Assembly (NCBI RefSeq): GCF_009856865.1
Contig: NZ_WVUD01000036.1
Location: 1 to 39,545 of the forward strand
DNA: 39,545 nucleotides
Direction of reading: 5' to 3'
From: Solidesulfovibrio aerotolerans
Lineage (GTDB): Bacteria; Desulfobacterota; Desulfovibrionia; Desulfovibrionales; Desulfovibrionaceae
Positions 1,788-11,628 of the stretch are shown piece after piece. Position 1 is the first letter of the stretch; each line of letters begins with the position of its first letter. Under the pieces are notes generated by a model. It saw only the letters and a program-made list of their open reading frames with translations, did not search any database and had not been told where the DNA came from. The position numbers and the translations under genes were made by a program.

Positions 1788-2414
1788 GGCAAGATGTTTA
1801 TTTTGTTTTTAACGAATAACAGAATTTGAGTCTGAAATTTCCCATAACTTTTAAATCTTGTGTTTGAAACTATTCACAGATCTACCCAGGATTAAAGCCA
1901 AAGAAGAACATCTACTTTCACAAGCAGTATAGCAGCATATCTAATGCCACAAATTATCAAGCCTCTGGGAACTGACGAATCCTCGAGTTGTAGGTAGTGG
2001 TGTTCAATACTGGGCAACCGGGCAAGGCTGTGATCGACATGTGTTCATGCGGATGCACTTCCTGAAAGATAATGGACGGTAGGCTGGCCGCGTTGTGGTC
2101 ACAGGTGTCGATAATTTTCACGAGCGCGGCCGGCAAACCCGAATAGCACTGTCGTGCAATCCCTGGCGGTGGCTCCACCGGGGTGCCCAGCGGCACCAAT
2201 ACTGGCCGAACAGGAACAGCGCCCGATACCAGCCTACCTCTAGCACCTAGTATTATTAGCAATTTCAAAAAATGGAGCCTAGTTGTGCCGTCAAGCAATT
2301 CCACGGCGGCTATTCGCTTCAAAAAAACGCGAATATTCCTAGATCAATGCAAAATTTTCAGCATTCCAGACAAGGCCCCTTTACAATGAGGTCCAAACCA
2401 TTATCTTTAAAAAT
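1788..2414. other. Intergenic stretch without a recognised gene
   Basis: About 630 bp between dgkA and the candidate structured RNA. Small hairpins occur, for example GTGCC-CAGC-GGCAC near 2188-2201 and GGTGG-CT-CCACC near 2169-2180. A 121-codon open frame on the minus strand (1957-2322) has no recognisable domain and no good ribosome binding site, so it is not called. The GC-richer patch at 2000-2230 inside AT-rich surroundings may be the remnant of another gene. Confidence 0.4.
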
Positions 2415-3132
2415 ACAGGCACCCCATAAACGGGGCTAACTCTAACAGGAGTAGCGCTGTCACGAATGCCAACTCCCATAACCGGCGAATTAAGTCGCCA
2501 AAAATGAAGGCCATTCAGGGTGTATAACCCCGGCCTGAATTACGACAAGACTTTTCTTATCGTACATGACTGCGACACAGTACGAATTTATGCCAAGAAC
2601 GACTGACGCAGTAGAGAATGGTGACTGTTTTAAGATTGGCGGCAACGCTCAACTGAACATCAGGTGGATGGTTAACGCCGATGGACTACATTGTTCCATA
2701 AATGGCGAAGCGAGTCGCCCAAGACTGAAAGCCCCAACTGCGGTGCACAAGGGCTGAAAAGACGATAGGCAAGCGCCAATCGTCGAAATGAAGACCAAGA
2801 CTCCGATACCGAAGTCAACAGCAGAACAAGATACTTGGTGTAGTGGAGTTGTCGAAAGAAAACCAGCGTGAAAGCGCACAAGAAGACATGATGTTCCGCG
2901 CCCGGCTAAACGAGAGCCAGTAGTTACGGCACCGAAGGTTCTCTTCGGGACCCGACAAAGCGAAAGGGAATAACCTTCTCGCTAGGAGCTACGGCGATCG
3001 GCCTGGTCGCAATGACCGGCGCAAGCTGACAAAAGTCACGTAGGGTTGCAGGAACAGGTTTTCGACAGCACTTGCAATAAAATCGAGTAGCAGCCTCGCC
3101 GGGTCCCACATGGGATTCGGCGAGGCTTTTTT
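2415..3132 (+). ncRNA. Candidate large structured non-coding RNA (~700 nt) ending in a rho-independent terminator
   Basis: No credible protein is encoded, but the plus strand is packed with clean stems. Examples: GGCGA/TCGCC (2484-2499); AGGCC/GGCCT enclosing GGGT/ACCC (2508-2536); CTTATCG pairing with CGACAAG with one mismatch (2543-2561); GGCGA/TCGCC again (2704-2719); AGCCC/GGGCT (2730-2755); GACGAT-a-GGC-aagc-GCC-a-ATCGTC (2761-2784); CCGAAG/CTTCGG (2931-2947); AGCGA+AAGG/CCTT+TCGCT (2960-2984). A three-way junction is closed by CTACG/CGTAG (2989-3043) and contains GGTC/GACC and TGAC/GTCA hairpins. TTGCA/TGCAA lies at 3046-3077. The strand follows from the terminator at 3092-3132. The 5' end is uncertain. 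It does not match the consensus of RNase P RNA, tmRNA, 6S RNA or c-di-GMP-I riboswitches as I know them. Known ornate large RNA classes cannot be excluded without covariance models. Confidence 0.55.
3092..3132 (+). terminator. Rho-independent terminator of the structured RNA
   Basis: AGCCTCGCCG pairs perfectly with CGGCGAGGCT (10 bp) and is followed by a T-run. The loop itself holds a nested TCCCA-ca-TGGGA stem. It closes the hairpin-rich 2415-3132 region and fixes its strand. Confidence 0.8.
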
Positions 3133-3155
3133 AGGCGTCCCCAATGCCCCTAAAC

Positions 3156-3232
3156 GCCTCCCTGGCGGCCGTTGGCACTCTGCGCGGACTTTCGTCGCCA
3201 AAGAGCCGAAATCGCACGGTACGCCTCCCTGG
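3156..3232. repeat. Direct repeat CGCCTCCCTGG, two copies
   Basis: The 11-mer CGCCTCCCTGG occurs near 3156-3166 and again near 3222-3232, between the RNA terminator and the palindromic repeat downstream of the HU gene. No gene was seen in 3133-3401. Confidence 0.4.
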
Positions 3233-3282
3233 ACATTATTCTGGACATCTGCTCCGACTGGGCCGGAGGTATTTGCCCCCCT

Positions 3283-3372
3283 GCGAAAATGGTAAATGTC
3301 GTTTCGGGGCGAACACTGGACCTGCAAACGGCTTTCATCGGGTCCACGGGGCCTGGCGTTCTCCATTTTCGC
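3283..3372. repeat. 90-bp nested palindromic repeat, copy A
   Basis: Outer arms GCGAAAATGG (3283-3292) and CCATTTTCGC (3363-3372) are perfect inverted repeats. Inside are a small hairpin (GTTTCG/CGAAC) and a second hairpin TGGACC (3317-3322)/GGTCCA (3341-3346). The same layout, with compensatory base changes, recurs at 4560-4650. It sits just downstream of the HU/IHF stop codon. It may be a MITE/REP-like mobile repeat or a conserved folded RNA element. Confidence 0.65.
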
Positions 3373-4749: not shown

Positions 4750-6339
4750 ATGCTTAAAATCCTGAAAAGAAAAAAGAATACAGGCTCATGCTCGTCCAAA
4801 CGGTTCTTTGACTGCGAAGACAAACCTCGACGAATCAAGGCCCGTTTTTTTTCATTTCTCACAATCATAATCGGCCTCTTTTACCTTTACTGGGTCTACG
4901 CAGCCGTCAACAGAGAGCACGCGATTGCAGCTACGCTCTTTTTGCTCGCGGAAATTGCTTGCTGGGGATTGTTTTGTTTTGCAACAATCGGTCTTTGGCG
5001 TTTGCGCTTTAAATCTCCGGAAGGCTTACCAGGTGACGGCAGCTTCTCCGTGGATATTTTCATTCCAACATACAGCGAGCCCCTTCAATACCTTACTACC
5101 ACTCTTCGAGCCGCAAGTCGTATTGAATATGCCGGGGCAATCGAGCGCTACGTGCTCGATGACGCAGGCCGTTCGGAAGTAGAGACCCTAGCAATGTCTC
5201 TCGGATTCCATTATCTCTCACGTCCCAAAAGCAAACAGCCAAATGCCAATGCTAAAGCGGGAAACTTAAATTTTGGATTGCGTCAGACCCATGGCGATCT
5301 CGTGCTTGTGCTTGATGCAGACCAAATTGCTCAGCCAAACATGCTCAATGCATTGATCGGCTACATGCGTTTTGAAAAAGTCGCATTTGTCCAGTCCAAG
5401 CAGAGCTACCTGACCCAGGAAGGCGATCCATTCTACAACAAATCACAAGTATTTTACGATATCGTCCAACTTGGAATGGACAATAACGACATGGCCATTT
5501 CCAGTGGCACAGGGGTTCTATACCGCCGTGAAGCGCTGGAAAGCATCGGAGGCTTTGTAGAATGGAATATTGTCGAAGATCTTACCACATCCTATACACT
5601 GCATGCTCACGGATGGAAATCGTTTTACTTTCCTCATGCACTCAGCCGTGGGTTGGCCCCTACGAGCATTGGCGGAGTCTATCAGCAGCGCGGGCAATGG
5701 GCCTTAGACACCATGCGAATTTTCATTTGGGACAACCCTTTTTTTAAAAAAGGGTTGAACCTCCTTGCCAGAATTCAATACTCGACAGTGGCGCTCTCCT
5801 ACATTTGTTCCGCATTTCTTTTTCCGTTTTTTTATCTTATTCCCATCTGGAGTTATGTTACTGGCTACACAATTCTTACCCGTCCTGAGGGTGAATTCCT
5901 TGTAATACGTGCCATTTATTTTATTGCAATGATCATTGCAACACACTATCTCTGCTACAAGCAGCAGCCAGGAAAGCAATTCCGGATGTTGGCCGGACTT
6001 TTCCCAATCTATATGTCAGGCATTGTCCGGGCTTTTTTTTACCCGATAGGGAAAAAACCGGGATATTGCCCGAACAATGCCACACTAGGTTGCTCGCTGG
6101 CCTCTAAAAGCAAACAGCCCCTAATGGCTATTTTGCCTCAGGTTGTCATTCTGCTGCTCAATCTCATCATGCCTTTTATTTCCTTGTTTTTCGGCCTTTG
6201 TGAGCCACGAATTATCGCTGCCAATATCCTTATTTCCGCAATAGCCATCTGGAGTATGTCCCAGGTCGTCTGGGCTGCCCTGTTCCCGGGCGATTGGGAG
6301 CCGGAGGAGGACCCGGACAATGTCTATTCTCTCGATTAA
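4750..6339 (+). CDS. Membrane-bound processive glycosyltransferase family 2 (cellulose-synthase-like)
   Basis: A 529-aa BcsA-like enzyme without a PilZ domain. Two N-terminal membrane segments (about 35-55 and 60-82) are followed by a cytosolic GT2 domain: VDIFIPTYSEP, LDDAG (Asp137/138), LDADQ (the DxD at 189-191), NIVEDLTTSY (catalytic Asp277) and the acceptor motif QQRGQW (312-317). Several C-terminal membrane helices form the likely channel. Family members polymerise UDP-sugars, often glucose, and extrude the chain. Two things are odd. The motif normally written QxxRW reads Q-R-G-Q-W here, with Gln316 for Arg. There is also no C-terminal PilZ domain, so no direct c-di-GMP control. GAAGGA precedes the ATG. 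The stop overlaps the next gene by 20 bp, which shows tight co-expression. The polymer is unknown; the GH8 gene in the operon favours a beta-1,4-glucan-like product. Confidence 0.9.
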   Translation: MLKILKRKKNTGSCSSKRFFDCEDKPRRIKARFFSFLTIIIGLFYLYWVYAAVNREHAIAATLFLLAEIACWGLFCFATIGLWRLRFKSPEGLPGDGSFSVDIFIPTYSEPLQYLTTTLRAASRIEYAGAIERYVLDDAGRSEVETLAMSLGFHYLSRPKSKQPNANAKAGNLNFGLRQTHGDLVLVLDADQIAQPNMLNALIGYMRFEKVAFVQSKQSYLTQEGDPFYNKSQVFYDIVQLGMDNNDMAISSGTGVLYRREALESIGGFVEWNIVEDLTTSYTLHAHGWKSFYFPHALSRGLAPTSIGGVYQQRGQWALDTMRIFIWDNPFFKKGLNLLARIQYSTVALSYICSAFLFPFFYLIPIWSYVTGYTILTRPEGEFLVIRAIYFIAMIIATHYLCYKQQPGKQFRMLAGLFPIYMSGIVRAFFYPIGKKPGYCPNNATLGCSLASKSKQPLMAILPQVVILLLNLIMPFISLFFGLCEPRIIAANILISAIAIWSMSQVVWAALFPGDWEPEEDPDNVYSLD

Positions 6340-9205
6340 ATCAAAACGACGCACCCTCATATTGGCGGGATTTATTGCGTTCTGGGTCATTGCCGCACTC
6401 TGGACCGTCAATAAATTTAATCCTGAATTCTGGAAAGACGGTTACTCGTACTATAAAGACGCCCAGGCATTTTTGGAGAAAAACGACCTTGAAGCGGCCA
6501 GGAACTCCATCCGCAAAGCGCGAACCCGGGATGCAAAAACTTCTGGCTATCTCGTTTTTGAAGGCTCCATCTGCGAAAAGCTGGGACTGCCCGACGAAGC
6601 GGCCCAAGCCTATAGCCAGGCTCTGGCCCTTGCACCCAACGATCCAGAGGCTGGCCTTGGGCTGGCCAGAATACTGCTGGCCCAGGGAAAGACACAGGAG
6701 GCGGCAACAATCCTGAGCCAGCTTGCGGCAACGGACTTGGACACGAGCATATTGGAACGACGGGCCGGGATTTTGGCTCAATACGGTGAACATGTTCGGG
6801 CCATGGCTGATTATGAGCGATTGCTTGCCGGAGATCCAGACAACGCCGGCTACCTGCGCGGATATAGCGCCTCGGCCATGGCCGTGAAGGACTGGAATAG
6901 CGCACAGAAAACCCTGTCAAAACTACTTTCAGTCTCTCCCGACGCTGCGCTTTCGGACTGGGCCAGGGGGCAACTGGTCATTGCGCTTCGGGCCGTTGGA
7001 AAGACGGCGGAAGCGTATGCGCTCCTGACAGCTGCTCCGCAAGCTACCAATGCGACTATGCGTGCCCAACTTGCTATGGAGCTTGAACTTTTTTCCGAAG
7101 CTATGCCGCTCCTGGAACAGCTTATCAAAACTGACCCTGGCAACGCAGACGTCGCCAACCAACTGGGCACAGCCTTGCGCGCCTTGGGACGTCTCGATGA
7201 AGCCTACACCCTTTTCTCTGCTTTCCCGGACGCTGGCAATCTTCGCCCACGTGCAGAACTGGCCCTGCAGCTTGAGAAGTTCGACGAAGCTGCCAAACTG
7301 TACCTGCAATTGACCAGGACGGAATCGGCTGCTGTGCTGGACAGAGAAAAACTGGCCTACGCCCTGGACCGGGCGGCCCAAAACAATAATCAAGCCCTTG
7401 CCCCGGTCGTGTCGTCCTCGACAGCGGTCGCACCGGCCGCCCCTGTGGCAACTGCAGCCGGCACCATACCCGACCCTTTGCCCGGCGATGCTGCAGCTGA
7501 GAAAGAATACAAAGCGCTGATAGCCTCGGAGCAAGCCTCCGAAGAAACAAAACTTCGCTATTCCTGGCTCCTGATGCGAGCGAAGCGCTACGCAGAAGCC
7601 TACGATCTTGCGCGCAATCTCCAGCATCTGACCGAACGCCCCGAAGAGTTGGAACTGGCTGCTAACGCTGCCTTTCTGGCTGGTAAATACGCTGAGGCCG
7701 CCCCGTTGCTTGAGTCCGCGGCGACCCGGCAGCCACAAAATACGATTTTTTTGCGCAATTTGGCCGACGCTTACGACGCACTTAAACAGCCCAGCCAAGC
7801 GGCGAGGACTTTGGACCGTCTCTTGGAGTTGGAGCCGAGAAACCGGGAGGCCCGGCTCAAGCTCGCTGGGTTGCTGGCAAGGGCCGGAGACAAGCGCCGG
7901 GCTGAAGATCTGTATCGACGTCTGCTTGATGACGAGCCGGAGAACACGCGTTTGGTTGATGAACTGGCCACGCTTTACGAAGCCCAGGGACGCCATACCG
8001 CCGCCATAGCCGTGCTGAGCAAGGCTCCCCCGTCAGTCCTCGCCGATCCCAACCTCATCTTTCGACTCGCCCGGCTGTACACCTGGATAAAAGATTATCC
8101 CGCCGCCATCCGCTGGTACACACGTTTTCTCGCCGCAACGGGCATACCCGCTGCCCAGCGCGCACAGGCCGGCATGGCCCTGGCCGGGGCCTATCTAGAA
8201 ACCGGGGATCTTGCTGCAGCCCAAAAGCAACTCCAGACCCTGCGGGCGGCGGTATCAACTTCGCCTGAACTGTTGCTCCTGGCGGCCCGGACAGCGATGG
8301 AATCAAAACAGCCGCAGCAGGCCGTAACGATCCTCGAGCGACTTGCCAGCCTGCGCCCGCTCAACGCACAGGAGACCCAGTGGCTGGCCGGACAATACAG
8401 ATTGATAGGCAATAAGCATAAAGCCCTTGCCCTTTACGAAAAAGCGATGACAGCTGGATGGCTAACAGCAGCCAACAGCCTGGAAGCACTTGGCGATCTG
8501 CGCTTCGACGCCGGACAATTCACCGCAGCTCTGACCGCCTTTCAGCAGGCGGAGAAAGACAACACAGTTGGCCGCCTCGCCCTTAAATTGGCCCGTGCAG
8601 CAGACAAGGCTGGCAACAAGGCACTCGCCAAGGCTGCTTATGACCGCTTTCTGGCGGGTAATCCCGATGATCCGGAGTTATTGCTGGAAACCGCCCGATA
8701 CGGCATCAACTCGGGCAACTACGCCCAGGCTTTGAATTTATATGAAAAGGTAGTGGCCCAAAAAGGCAGCAAAGGCTTGTTGTTGGAACTGGCCCAGGCA
8801 AACTTGGCGGCCAAGCGATTCGCCATGGCCGAAAGTTGGGCACAGCAAGCCGTACAGGCTGGGGAAGGCGGATTTAAGGCCACGTTGGCCCTGGTGCAGG
8901 CCCTGCATCTGCAAGGTAAAATTTCTGAGGCGGACAAGTTGTTGCGAGAGAACAAGCAAGCCATCATGGCGCATCCCGAGGGCCGTCAGTGGCTGGGTTA
9001 CGTGGCTGTAGCCAGGGATCGTCAGCTTGAGGCCTACGATATCTTCAATGACCTCGCCAAAACAGACGAAGGTGATCCGGGCAAAATGTGGTTATGGCGG
9101 GGTATTGCCGCCACTCGGCGCGGCGACTACGCGCGGGCTAGGGAGAGCTTTGACAAGGCTCGGCAATACGGCGCGAGCGTACCCCAGACGGCCATCGACC
9201 AGTAA
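6320..9205 (+). CDS. Inner-membrane-anchored TPR protein of the exopolysaccharide operon (periplasmic scaffold)
   Basis: A 961-aa protein with a basic N-terminus and one membrane segment (about residues 12-30), then TPR repeats almost to the end. Examples are GYLVFEGSICEKLGLPDEAA, and PDEAAQAYSQALALAPNDPE with the usual 34-residue spacing. An Ala/Pro/Val-rich linker (about 355-390) splits the array into two blocks. In BcsC, PgaA and PelB a TPR superhelix of this kind leads the polymer across the periplasm to an outer-membrane pore; here the pore is encoded separately by the next gene. The ATG at 6320 lies inside the end of the glycosyltransferase gene, with GGAGGAGG upstream, so translation is probably coupled. 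The substrate-guiding role is inferred from context. Confidence 0.82.
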   Translation: MSILSIKSKRRTLILAGFIAFWVIAALWTVNKFNPEFWKDGYSYYKDAQAFLEKNDLEAARNSIRKARTRDAKTSGYLVFEGSICEKLGLPDEAAQAYSQALALAPNDPEAGLGLARILLAQGKTQEAATILSQLAATDLDTSILERRAGILAQYGEHVRAMADYERLLAGDPDNAGYLRGYSASAMAVKDWNSAQKTLSKLLSVSPDAALSDWARGQLVIALRAVGKTAEAYALLTAAPQATNATMRAQLAMELELFSEAMPLLEQLIKTDPGNADVANQLGTALRALGRLDEAYTLFSAFPDAGNLRPRAELALQLEKFDEAAKLYLQLTRTESAAVLDREKLAYALDRAAQNNNQALAPVVSSSTAVAPAAPVATAAGTIPDPLPGDAAAEKEYKALIASEQASEETKLRYSWLLMRAKRYAEAYDLARNLQHLTERPEELELAANAAFLAGKYAEAAPLLESAATRQPQNTIFLRNLADAYDALKQPSQAARTLDRLLELEPRNREARLKLAGLLARAGDKRRAEDLYRRLLDDEPENTRLVDELATLYEAQGRHTAAIAVLSKAPPSVLADPNLIFRLARLYTWIKDYPAAIRWYTRFLAATGIPAAQRAQAGMALAGAYLETGDLAAAQKQLQTLRAAVSTSPELLLLAARTAMESKQPQQAVTILERLASLRPLNAQETQWLAGQYRLIGNKHKALALYEKAMTAGWLTAANSLEALGDLRFDAGQFTAALTAFQQAEKDNTVGRLALKLARAADKAGNKALAKAAYDRFLAGNPDDPELLLETARYGINSGNYAQALNLYEKVVAQKGSKGLLLELAQANLAAKRFAMAESWAQQAVQAGEGGFKATLALVQALHLQGKISEADKLLRENKQAIMAHPEGRQWLGYVAVARDRQLEAYDIFNDLAKTDEGDPGKMWLWRGIAATRRGDYARARESFDKARQYGASVPQTAIDQ

Positions 9206-9278
9206 AAAAACAGCCCCAGAAAAACAGACACAAGCCCGGCGTAACGTAAAATCGGGCAAACGCAAAAGGGATAGCACC

Positions 9279-10484
9279 ATGAAACCTCTCGCACGATTCC
9301 TGCTGGCCCTGGGATTGCTGGTCCTGCCGGTTATTGACGTGGGGGCCTCCTCCCTTCAGGAAAGCGGTGAACTGCGCCCCTTCATCCCTCATCTGGTTCA
9401 GCCGTCGGAAGACGTGGTGCCAGTTGTGGCAACTAATGACGAGTCCCTGTCCGCCGAAATAGCCAAAGCTGAAAAGGAACTCGAAGCGCGGCGTAAGTCG
9501 TCGGTAAGCTTATACAGTTCAGGTTTTCGTGACAAGAACGACATCACAGTAATGCATGGTGGTTTGTTCGCAGCAGCCAACTTTCTGGACTCACTCAACG
9601 CCCGCTTGCTCTTCATGACCGGCCAACTTCATCAGGATGCAAAGAGCCAGCGCCGTGAAACCGACATTTGGCGGACGGCTGCTTCACTGGGGGTGGCGGA
9701 TCTCTTTCTCACGCCGCGTATCATCGTCTGGGGGGCCGCAGGTTACGAAACCTTCACCCTCAACAGCCCGGAATCGCAACTATCCATGGACAGCGAGGGC
9801 GACCTGAACCGCTGGAGTCGCACGCCCATGTATAGGGGCTACCTTGTCGGAGGCCGCCTCGGGGTGAAATACGTTTTTGGTAATGAATCCGAATTGGGAT
9901 TGGAGGCAAAACGGGAAAGCCTCTGGGCCGAACACGACAAGTTCGACACACGTGTATTCAATCGGGTAGAGGATATGACCAAGATGGCGGCAGACATGGC
10001 GGCTAATAAGGGACGCATATTTGCCAACATTGTGACTTTTCCAGAACAGCAGTTACACCTTGACGGTGGATTCGATTCCCTTGAAGATGGTAATCTTCGC
10101 CGATGGGGGTATGCCCACTATCAGGTCCCAGTTTTGTGGAGTCAAGATAAGCACTGGACAGTTCTTCGGCCAAATTTTTATGTGGAGTCCTGCACTGAAA
10201 ACAAGGCAGGTTACTTTTCTCCAGACTCACACATCACCACGGGCGTCATGCTGCATACAATTCATAACTTTAAATATGTTGACTTGGAAGCTGAGGTGAA
10301 TCCTCAACTTCTTTGGACCCGCAACCAAACTAAAAATGGCGAAACCCAAGAAGGCATTCACGGCTTAGTCAACATAACCTATAAATACGAAGACCTTAGG
10401 CTGGGCGTTGGTGGCTTCGCCTATGCTGATACGGACAATTACTGGATATACCGTGCAAACGTATTTCTGAAATATTCATTTTGA
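9279..10484 (+). CDS. Outer-membrane beta-barrel protein, likely polysaccharide export pore
   Basis: A 401-aa protein with a clear signal peptide (MKPLARFLLALGLLVLP..., cleavage near GASS). A short coiled or charged segment follows (SAEIAKAEKELEARRKS), then alternating amphipathic strands rich in Tyr, Trp and Gly up to a C-terminal ...NVFLKYSF. The terminal Phe and alternating pattern are typical of outer-membrane barrels recognised by BamA. No specific family was recognised, though the position after a TPR scaffold fits the barrel half of BcsC. The start at 9279 is preferred over an in-frame ATG at 9027, because 9027 lies inside the TPR gene and 9279 starts the signal peptide after AAAAGGG. 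It ends 7 bp before the GH8 gene. Confidence 0.72.
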   Translation: MKPLARFLLALGLLVLPVIDVGASSLQESGELRPFIPHLVQPSEDVVPVVATNDESLSAEIAKAEKELEARRKSSVSLYSSGFRDKNDITVMHGGLFAAANFLDSLNARLLFMTGQLHQDAKSQRRETDIWRTAASLGVADLFLTPRIIVWGAAGYETFTLNSPESQLSMDSEGDLNRWSRTPMYRGYLVGGRLGVKYVFGNESELGLEAKRESLWAEHDKFDTRVFNRVEDMTKMAADMAANKGRIFANIVTFPEQQLHLDGGFDSLEDGNLRRWGYAHYQVPVLWSQDKHWTVLRPNFYVESCTENKAGYFSPDSHITTGVMLHTIHNFKYVDLEAEVNPQLLWTRNQTKNGETQEGIHGLVNITYKYEDLRLGVGGFAYADTDNYWIYRANVFLKYSF

Positions 10485-10491
10485 GAAGGTC

Positions 10492-11628
10492 ATGATGCAA
10501 GGGAAAAATCACTGGGTTCTCTTTTTTTGTATGCTCATGTTGATGGTTATGCCAGGATGCACCCGTGATGCCCTGCCCCAAAATCCGACTGCGGCATTTC
10601 TGGACGAGGCCTGGGTCGCCTACAAAGGCGTGTTTATCAAACCTGAGGGCTATGTTTGGGACCAAGCCCGGCGGGAAGTAACGAGCGAAGGCCAGTCCTA
10701 CGCTCTCCTGCGAGCAGTCTGGATGGAGGACAGGGCCACTTTCGATCTGGTGTTCAATTGGACTGAAGCTCATCTTGCCCGTCCGGATGGCTTGTATTCC
10801 TGGCAATGGACGCCGGATGACGGCGGCCGCGTTATCGACGCTAACACCGCAACCGATGCTGACCAGGACATCACTTTTGCCCTAATCCTAGCGTCCCGGG
10901 CCTTCCAGGAGCCTGCTTATCTTGAGCGGGCGCGCACCTTGCTGACGGCTATCCGCCTGCATACGGGAATTATGCTGCCCGCCGGCTGGATACCCGGAGC
11001 CGGCAACTGGGCAGTGGCTGAACGAATCATCAATTTTTCCTATTTTACGTTTTACGCATACCCCGCCTTTGCCTCCGTTGACCCGAACGGAGAATGGCTT
11101 GGGGTACGAGAACGCGCCTATGATCTGTTGTCGCAGTTTCTGTCAACCCCTGGGGTTCTGCTGCCTGCAGATTTCGCAGTCATTGATGAAGCTGGAGCCT
11201 TTATGCCCGTTGCGGGTAAGGGCAAACTTTCCGACAGTTTTTCATTTGACGCGATGAGAATTTACTGGCGCGTGGCCCTGGATTGCCTTCTCAACCATCA
11301 TCTCCGCGCCTGCAGCGATCCGTCGAGAACCAGAAATATTGTGGACATATTGGCTCGGGATGGAACGATATACTCTCGTTACAGTGTGACGAGTAAAAAA
11401 GAATCAAACGATACATCCGTAAGCTTTTTGGGCAGCCTGATGCCTTCTCTGGGATTGGCTTATCCGCAAATTGCCAAGGCTCTCGTTGATAAAGAACTTT
11501 CTCCCGAAAAACTTAGACCTATTATTCGCAACCCAGACCGGTACTACGATAACAATTGGACATGGTTCGGACTTGCCGCTTGGTCTGGATTCATTACTTC
11601 AAAGATATCCGCCAAGTCAGAGCCTTAA
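10492..11628 (+). CDS. Glycoside hydrolase family 8 (BcsZ-like endoglucanase), probable lipoprotein
   Basis: A 378-aa protein. The N-terminus is a hydrophobic signal ending in MVMPGC, a non-standard but possible lipobox, so it may be a periplasmic lipoprotein. GH8 landmarks are present: TSEGQSYALL with Glu66 as general acid, NTATDADQD (the ATDAD block, 119-126), NFSYFTFYAYP (NPSYxxP-like) and SFSFDAMRIYW with Asp252, matching the BcsZ general base region. In cellulose operons BcsZ trims beta-1,4-glucan in the periplasm and is needed for efficient export. ATG codons at 10492 and 10495 are both possible after GAGAAGG. It is the last gene of the operon; no strong terminator follows at once. Confidence 0.88.
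   Translation: MMQGKNHWVLFFCMLMLMVMPGCTRDALPQNPTAAFLDEAWVAYKGVFIKPEGYVWDQARREVTSEGQSYALLRAVWMEDRATFDLVFNWTEAHLARPDGLYSWQWTPDDGGRVIDANTATDADQDITFALILASRAFQEPAYLERARTLLTAIRLHTGIMLPAGWIPGAGNWAVAERIINFSYFTFYAYPAFASVDPNGEWLGVRERAYDLLSQFLSTPGVLLPADFAVIDEAGAFMPVAGKGKLSDSFSFDAMRIYWRVALDCLLNHHLRACSDPSRTRNIVDILARDGTIYSRYSVTSKKESNDTSVSFLGSLMPSLGLAYPQIAKALVDKELSPEKLRPIIRNPDRYYDNNWTWFGLAAWSGFITSKISAKSEP

Follow-up and report, generated by a model that had tools for sequence, protein, structure and literature searches.

A candidate gene for a large modular RNA in Solidesulfovibrio, with compact relatives in the Desulfovibrionaceae

To our knowledge, only few bacterial RNAs of the size discussed here are known, and most of them have no assigned function. 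CsrB carries a repeated binding-type unit and has a promoter and a terminator of its own. GOLLD, ROOL and OLE are characterized by their length, a dense conserved structure and a poorly understood role (PMC12286853), and the RNA presented here resembles them in these respects. The Soda Lake RNA (smtA motif, HRC-65-1) is likewise large, structured, restricted to a genus, located upstream of a gene and supported by covariation, according to PMC11109978. For Oleidesulfovibrio alaskensis, PMC11124144 gives 37 ncRNAs in 18 Rfam families.

The window analyzed in this study, a stretch of 39,545 nt from Solidesulfovibrio aerotolerans, carries at 2414-3132 on the plus strand what we regard as the gene of a free-standing large RNA with a modular build (about 719 nt), as judged from the -10 element, the fold and the homologues within the genus. 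A first-pass annotation had proposed that a large structured RNA lies at this place and is ended by a terminator of its own, and the homologues, the compensatory base changes and the conserved promoter and terminator bear this out. That the RNA family exists and has the modular anatomy described below is nearly certain. The family is new and lies outside any Rfam family tested; this novelty is claimed for the family and not for its mode of action. None of the 4227 families of Rfam 15 (including GOLLD, ROOL, OLE, HEARO and the group I and II introns) matched the window at its gathering score, in line with the earlier suggestion of a class without known match, and E-value scans of the RNA and 18 relative loci against Rfam yielded nothing at gathering score. 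No published description was found in the open literature searched.

The RNA locus in the window

A sigma-70-like promoter is predicted at 2380-2407 on the plus strand (-35 TTTACA at 2380-2385, -10 TATCTT at 2402-2407, spacer 16). Since the -10 element ends at 2407, transcription would be expected to start near 2414, within one or two bases of the start given in the first-pass annotation. The TA..T of the -10 element is the same in 15/15 aligned copies; the same holds for TTTACAA of the -35 element, but by construction, as the copies were trimmed at that string. The leader forms the hairpin P1 (CCCC/GGGG, 2422-2435), seen in the alignment and in the consensus fold. It is followed by module 1 (2474-2693) with CAUA and the P3 hairpin at 2484-2499, H2, and H3 at 2541-2564, by module 2 (2694-2889) with CAUA and the P3 hairpin at 2704-2719 (loop AGCGAG) and H3 at 2761-2784, and by a terminal domain (2890-3091) with the conserved hairpin CCGAAG-GUUCU-CUUCGG at 2932-2948. 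The P3 loop of module 1 reads AUUAAG and thus ends with AAG in place of GAG. At the 3' end lies an intrinsic terminator (3092-3132), the pairs of which are kept with two-sided changes in the homologues. Its stem (3092-3127) comprises 16 pairs, 11 of them G-C, precedes a T run and has a z-score of -7.4, so that the terminator recognized earlier is a real one. This stem is symmetric to such a degree that blastn matches its reverse strand as well.

The plus strand of 2415-3132 folds with -258.1 kcal/mol, a value that dinucleotide shuffles (n=20) fall far short of (z -6.97), and this fits the density of stems reported in the first-pass annotation. Without the terminator the z-score is -4.5 (30 shuffles), compared to a span of -3.4 to +2.6 for ten control segments from the same window. 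Seven other homologues reach z-scores of -2.4 to -4.2 without their terminators, four of them within the control range. As the energy alone fails to set every homologue apart, our case rests on covariation. A good fold is likewise obtained for the complementary strand (z -5.2), which is to be expected for a paired sequence. The three-way junction assigned earlier to 2989-3043 did not hold up: it can be drawn, but its fold is not better than that of shuffles (z -0.94), and it is not conserved, since the corresponding stretches of the loci L079 and L071 do not have it in their best folds.

The locus had been described as lacking credible coding potential, and we came to the same conclusion. The longest plus-strand frame from stop to stop that ends inside the RNA has 72 amino acids; on the minus strand there are frames of 110 amino acids at 2649-2981 and of 135 amino acids extending out to 3396. 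None of ten frames reached the Pfam cut-off, two weak matches (E 0.026 and 0.03) being far below, and a decayed protein gene was rejected on this ground. A small ORF behind GGAGG was rejected as well, since the ATG is absent, by eye, from 6/15 aligned leaders (L071, L074, L075, L076, L080, L084) and some module spacings are not divisible by three.

A mobile setting, as suggested in the first-pass annotation, is not indicated, because the family is present in 14/14 genomes of the genus and no match was obtained in plasmid, phage and viral collections (blastn with the window copy and an exact pattern). Further downstream, at 4750-11628, the window contains a cellulose-like cluster (glycosyltransferase, TPR protein, glycosyl hydrolase family 8) beside a MucR-type regulator.

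Homologues, modules and covariation

With the window copy as query, blastn gave matches in 9/198 genomes including its own, and the sole match outside the genus (31 nt) was taken for chance; with either of two other copies as query, 14/14 Solidesulfovibrio genomes are matched. The genome of S. aerotolerans itself possesses a second full-length copy on contig C104 (71% identity to the window copy) and a third, htpX-linked copy on C117. The blastn alignment of the window with locus L002 covers the full length at 71% (E 1e-88). A covariance model of the leader, R1, recognizes the window at 2410-2499 with 91.7 bits (E 1e-18), the window copy being one of the 14 sequences from which R1 was built. 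Altogether 17 copies were extracted, 14 of them (one per genome) linked to htpX and three orphans. The window RNA is thus no single case but an orphan paralogue of the RNAs located in front of htpX.

The same layout is found in all 17 copies: TTTACAA and a leader of ~100 nt are followed by tandem modules of ~200 nt, and after the terminal domain an intrinsic terminator closes the RNA. Two modules are present in 11 copies, three in 3 copies and four in another 3, and the length after the promoter ranges from 707 to 1136 nt. The module alignment comprises 37/43 modules (those of L078, L079 and L081 were omitted as near duplicates). Invariant in it are CA.A and the P3 hairpin GGCGA....AGTCGCC; as A.A and the P3 stem served to locate the modules, their invariance is largely given by construction. 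The terminal-domain hairpin CCGGAG-GUUCU-CUCCGG has kept its loop in 15/15 aligned copies, and AGGUUCUCU of this hairpin is equally the same in 15/15, while one stem pair is changed on both sides among the aligned copies. The terminal-domain model R2 matched 14/297 genomes of the order, 11 of them in the genus; the three matches outside (L128-L130; E 0.003-0.07) look coding-like by eye and were taken as chance. A third type of paralogue in Solidesulfovibrio, about 350 nt long with one module and the same kind of terminator, is convincing in 3/14 genomes: L041 (G013:C152), L173 (G010:C1:1581899-1582234) and L174 (G004:C1:3011891-3012204).

The first-pass annotation had named covariation in homologues as a check, and compensatory changes are found both in the modules and in the compact relatives. 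Within the modules, 10/19 pairs show two-sided changes compared to 6.8 in shuffles (8/500 as high), and the covariation score is 0.174 compared to 0.095 (0/500 as high). No shuffle out of 500 was as high in the cells paired or in the cells with double changes, and 23/500 were as high in further pair types; slid versions of the module structure scored lower on each measure. In H2, 4/6 pairs are changed on both sides with 74% of the cells paired, and in H3 6/8 pairs with 78%; these two helices played no part in locating the modules. In the compact relatives (67 distinct aligned rows), 14/17 pairs have double changes compared to 4.1 in shuffles, and 97.5% of the cells are paired, with 95-99% in the three helices, figures that are favored by an alignment fitted to the structure of the model.

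These compact relatives extend the family beyond the genus. At E≤0.1, R1 has matches in 53/288 genomes of the Desulfovibrionaceae, belonging to 16/44 genera; the part of these matches that was read, which includes some but not every one of the weak hits, holds many true relatives and some chance hits. Two hits outside the genus (L112 and L114) proved coding-like when read and were dropped. Many of the relatives are compact: they measure about 220 nt, possess a promoter-like site of their own and consist of ACGGAGGGU, P3 and a following domain, which encloses a CCGG hairpin and has GUGCGCC/GGCGCAC as its closing stem immediately ahead of the U tract. The model R3, built from 24 compact RNAs that were picked by the hairpin pattern with a GAG loop, matched 86/348 genomes of the order at E≤0.01 (15/59 genera), 80 of them at 1e-5 or better, these 80 being in the same family. 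In an even sample of the phylum, 5/297 genomes were matched, of which three are family members at 5e-6 or better; the other two have E-values of 0.001 and 0.009. A pattern scan of genome contigs gave 4/20 stretches outside the Desulfovibrionaceae (L140, L144, L149, L150), which lack the leader and terminator layout by eye and were taken as chance.

We consider GGAGG, CAUA and a five-pair P3 hairpin with a six-base loop ending in GAG as the core of the family, as deduced from the aligned sequences. Another structured domain and the intrinsic terminator come after this core, which in Solidesulfovibrio is multiplied two to four times in tandem together with about 140 nt. Among the distinct compact rows, GGAGG occurs in 66/67 and the GAG loop end in 67/67, the latter count leaning on the GAG-based selection of the R3 training sequences. 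Since R3 matches 0/14 Solidesulfovibrio genomes, the link between the compact and the large RNAs rests on R1. R1 matches 13/20 loci fetched at R3 places (E≤0.1) and gave 40 matches over 40 sources, all of them on these RNAs by eye, many of these sources having been brought in by R1 itself. The link is also supported by intermediates, namely the htpX-linked single-module RNAs L102, L105 and L242 and the ~350-nt paralogues in Solidesulfovibrio.

The three orphans are the window copy on contig C91, its 94% counterpart in genome G007 (L079) and the C104 copy (L071). Their consensus fold has a z-score of -14 against 40 column shuffles, and of its 211 pairs 146 are unchanged between the window and the C104 copy, 18 are changed on one side, 12 on both sides and 35 are broken. 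Common to the three are a changed terminal-domain hairpin and a first-module loop with an AAG end (in L079 read separately from the module map). With regard to the core, the window copy has retained CAUA and the hairpin in module 2 and CAUA with an AAG-loop hairpin in module 1, and has lost GGAGG (0 compared to 0.9 expected), as has L079. The window copy and the G007 copy differ by about 6%, their flanking blocks by 3% and 5%; the 3' domain of the RNA, with a difference of 2%, is the exception to this higher divergence, which speaks against a strong constraint on the window copy. In the G007 locus, dgkA and the RNA are about 1.1 kb further apart, and this extra stretch includes a TerC-family gene (window 1978-2142 versus L079 3293-4535). 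The loss of GGAGG together with the AAG end in one of the two loops suggests that the window copy may be decaying or changed.

The htpX setting and the possible role of the RNA

In 14/14 genomes of the genus, one copy each has an htpX-like start codon 20-36 nt behind the terminator match. The Peptidase_M48 domain is present in the tested downstream ORFs of L077 and of L102, the latter from another genus. The terminator lies directly before an ORF in the 14 htpX-linked copies, which is not so for the three orphans (L079, L071 and the window copy). A single module is found in the htpX-linked RNAs from three genomes of another genus (L102, L105, L242), in which the terminator arm reads CCTCGTCC.

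We favor, tentatively, a free-standing regulatory RNA that presents its core several times to one partner, a reading that seems quite possible, if short of probable. The core, which persists in the compact and the large forms and is multiplied two to four times in the latter, is best read as a docking site. Action in trans is favored by the close pairs of compact RNAs and by the lack of a fixed downstream gene in the compact loci read. In at least 18/86 genomes two R3 matches lie a few hundred nt apart; examples are L215, L220, L221, L222, L228, L229, L230 and L233. Upstream of some of these pairs there is a DUF2784 gene (L215 by Pfam; L220, L221 and L233 by eye). The one partner, for which an RNA-binding protein is the most likely candidate, would then dock at each core, and with its modules in tandem a transcript would offer more such sites, in the manner of decoy RNAs. 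Such multi-site docking is possible but somewhat doubtful. With htpX behind the terminator, transcription that escapes termination would also yield htpX mRNA, and this read-through would link the levels of RNA and protease. The window copy has kept promoter, fold and terminator with no htpX behind; its altered GGAGG and altered first loop make a changed partner conceivable. In its widest form, our proposal is a new RNA class in which growth occurs by duplicating an entire folded domain of ~200 nt in tandem, with two, three or four docking domains per transcript among sister species, their number setting how many partners are held and the terminator coupling this platform to the membrane-stress protease HtpX. 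This combination is rather unlikely to hold in every part.

It might be argued instead that the RNA is a cis-acting attenuator, i.e. a 5' leader of htpX in which the sensing of a ligand or of membrane-protein stress determines whether the terminator is passed, with the orphans as relics or duplicates. The short distance to htpX in 14/14 genomes, hardly leaving room for a promoter between terminator and start codon, and the same arrangement in the three genomes of the other genus fit this well. Moreover, 8/14 copies of the genus have an upstream complement of 10-11 nt to the 5' arm of the terminator that is matched by only 1-3/100 shuffles, and in seven of these it lies at the same site, GCCGGGCGGGG. 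However, the best complement in the remaining 6/14 copies is no better than shuffles (39-100/100 as good), and the same is true for 3/3 copies of the other genus, so there is no antiterminator common to all copies. A GGACGAG complement seen upstream in L242, and by eye in L102, is not better than chance. Since the compact relatives also stand alone in the loci read and the orphans keep their fold, we regard attenuation as unlikely.

A base-pairing small RNA, in which the GGAGG region is the seed for C-rich targets and the hairpins provide stability or chaperone sites, would explain why GGAGG is kept in nearly every compact row within a region that has no consensus helix (RNAalifold). Against this stand the loss of GGAGG from the window copy and L079, its ability to pair with CUCC in htpX-type leaders, and an invariant hairpin loop that would be unusual for a pure seed RNA. 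This explanation is distinctly unlikely.

The size of 707-1136 nt, the extensive structure and repeated hairpins with arms that could exchange between copies are also reminiscent of a structural RNA that assembles with its own copies, like GOLLD, ROOL and OLE (PMC12286853). Yet no Rfam match to these three was obtained, the P3 and P4 stems change independently in the compact relatives (by eye), which speaks against strand exchange, and no phage link was found in the collections searched, which makes self-assembly improbable. A CsrA sponge of the CsrB/RsmZ kind is very improbable, even though csrA is present in 14/14 genomes, the units are repeated, and AGGA in L082 and GGA in L084 are 3.1 and 2.3 sd above shuffles, as GGA exceeds dinucleotide shuffles by no more than 1.7 sd in the remaining 16 copies, with 9 GGA in the window copy compared to 14.4 expected, and the match to RsmV is weak (E 0.13, 15.3 bits compared to 100) and, at 3098-3292, mostly beyond the RNA.

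Comparison with known RNAs

The regulatory RNA with several docking sites that we favor comes close to the CsrB/RsmXYZ decoys in having a repeated binding-type unit and a promoter and terminator of its own. It differs from them by the lack of a consistent GGA enrichment, by a conserved unit that consists of a hairpin and its flanks, and by a module of about 200 nt. With attenuator and riboswitch leaders it shares a structured RNA that ends in an intrinsic terminator close to the start of an ORF (htpX in 14/14 genomes); in contrast to these, such a gene is missing behind the window copy and behind those compact relatives that were read, the large RNAs have a size of 0.7-1.1 kb and a common antiterminator is missing. 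The Soda Lake RNA occurs in Thioalkalivibrio only and is >350 nt long according to PMC11109978, in the main text of which Desulfovibrio and htpX have no occurrence; it is set apart here by this description. The best sub-threshold match in Rfam was isrF (RF01389), aligned at 2967-3131 with 23.3 bits and E 0.00067. This is below the gathering score of 40, concerns the 3' part only and was not seen at E≤1 in the loci of five relatives.

The family comes in natural size variants of about 220, 350, 720, 930 and 1130 nt and includes compact relatives; its repeated hairpin is open to mutation, and a protease gene lies immediately downstream. It makes testable whether added folded domains add binding capacity in large RNAs. 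Compared to GOLLD, ROOL and OLE, to which it has no Rfam match at gathering score, the RNA described here is built from tandem modules of variable number, is present in every genome of one genus and not phage-linked, and has compact relatives of 220 nt.
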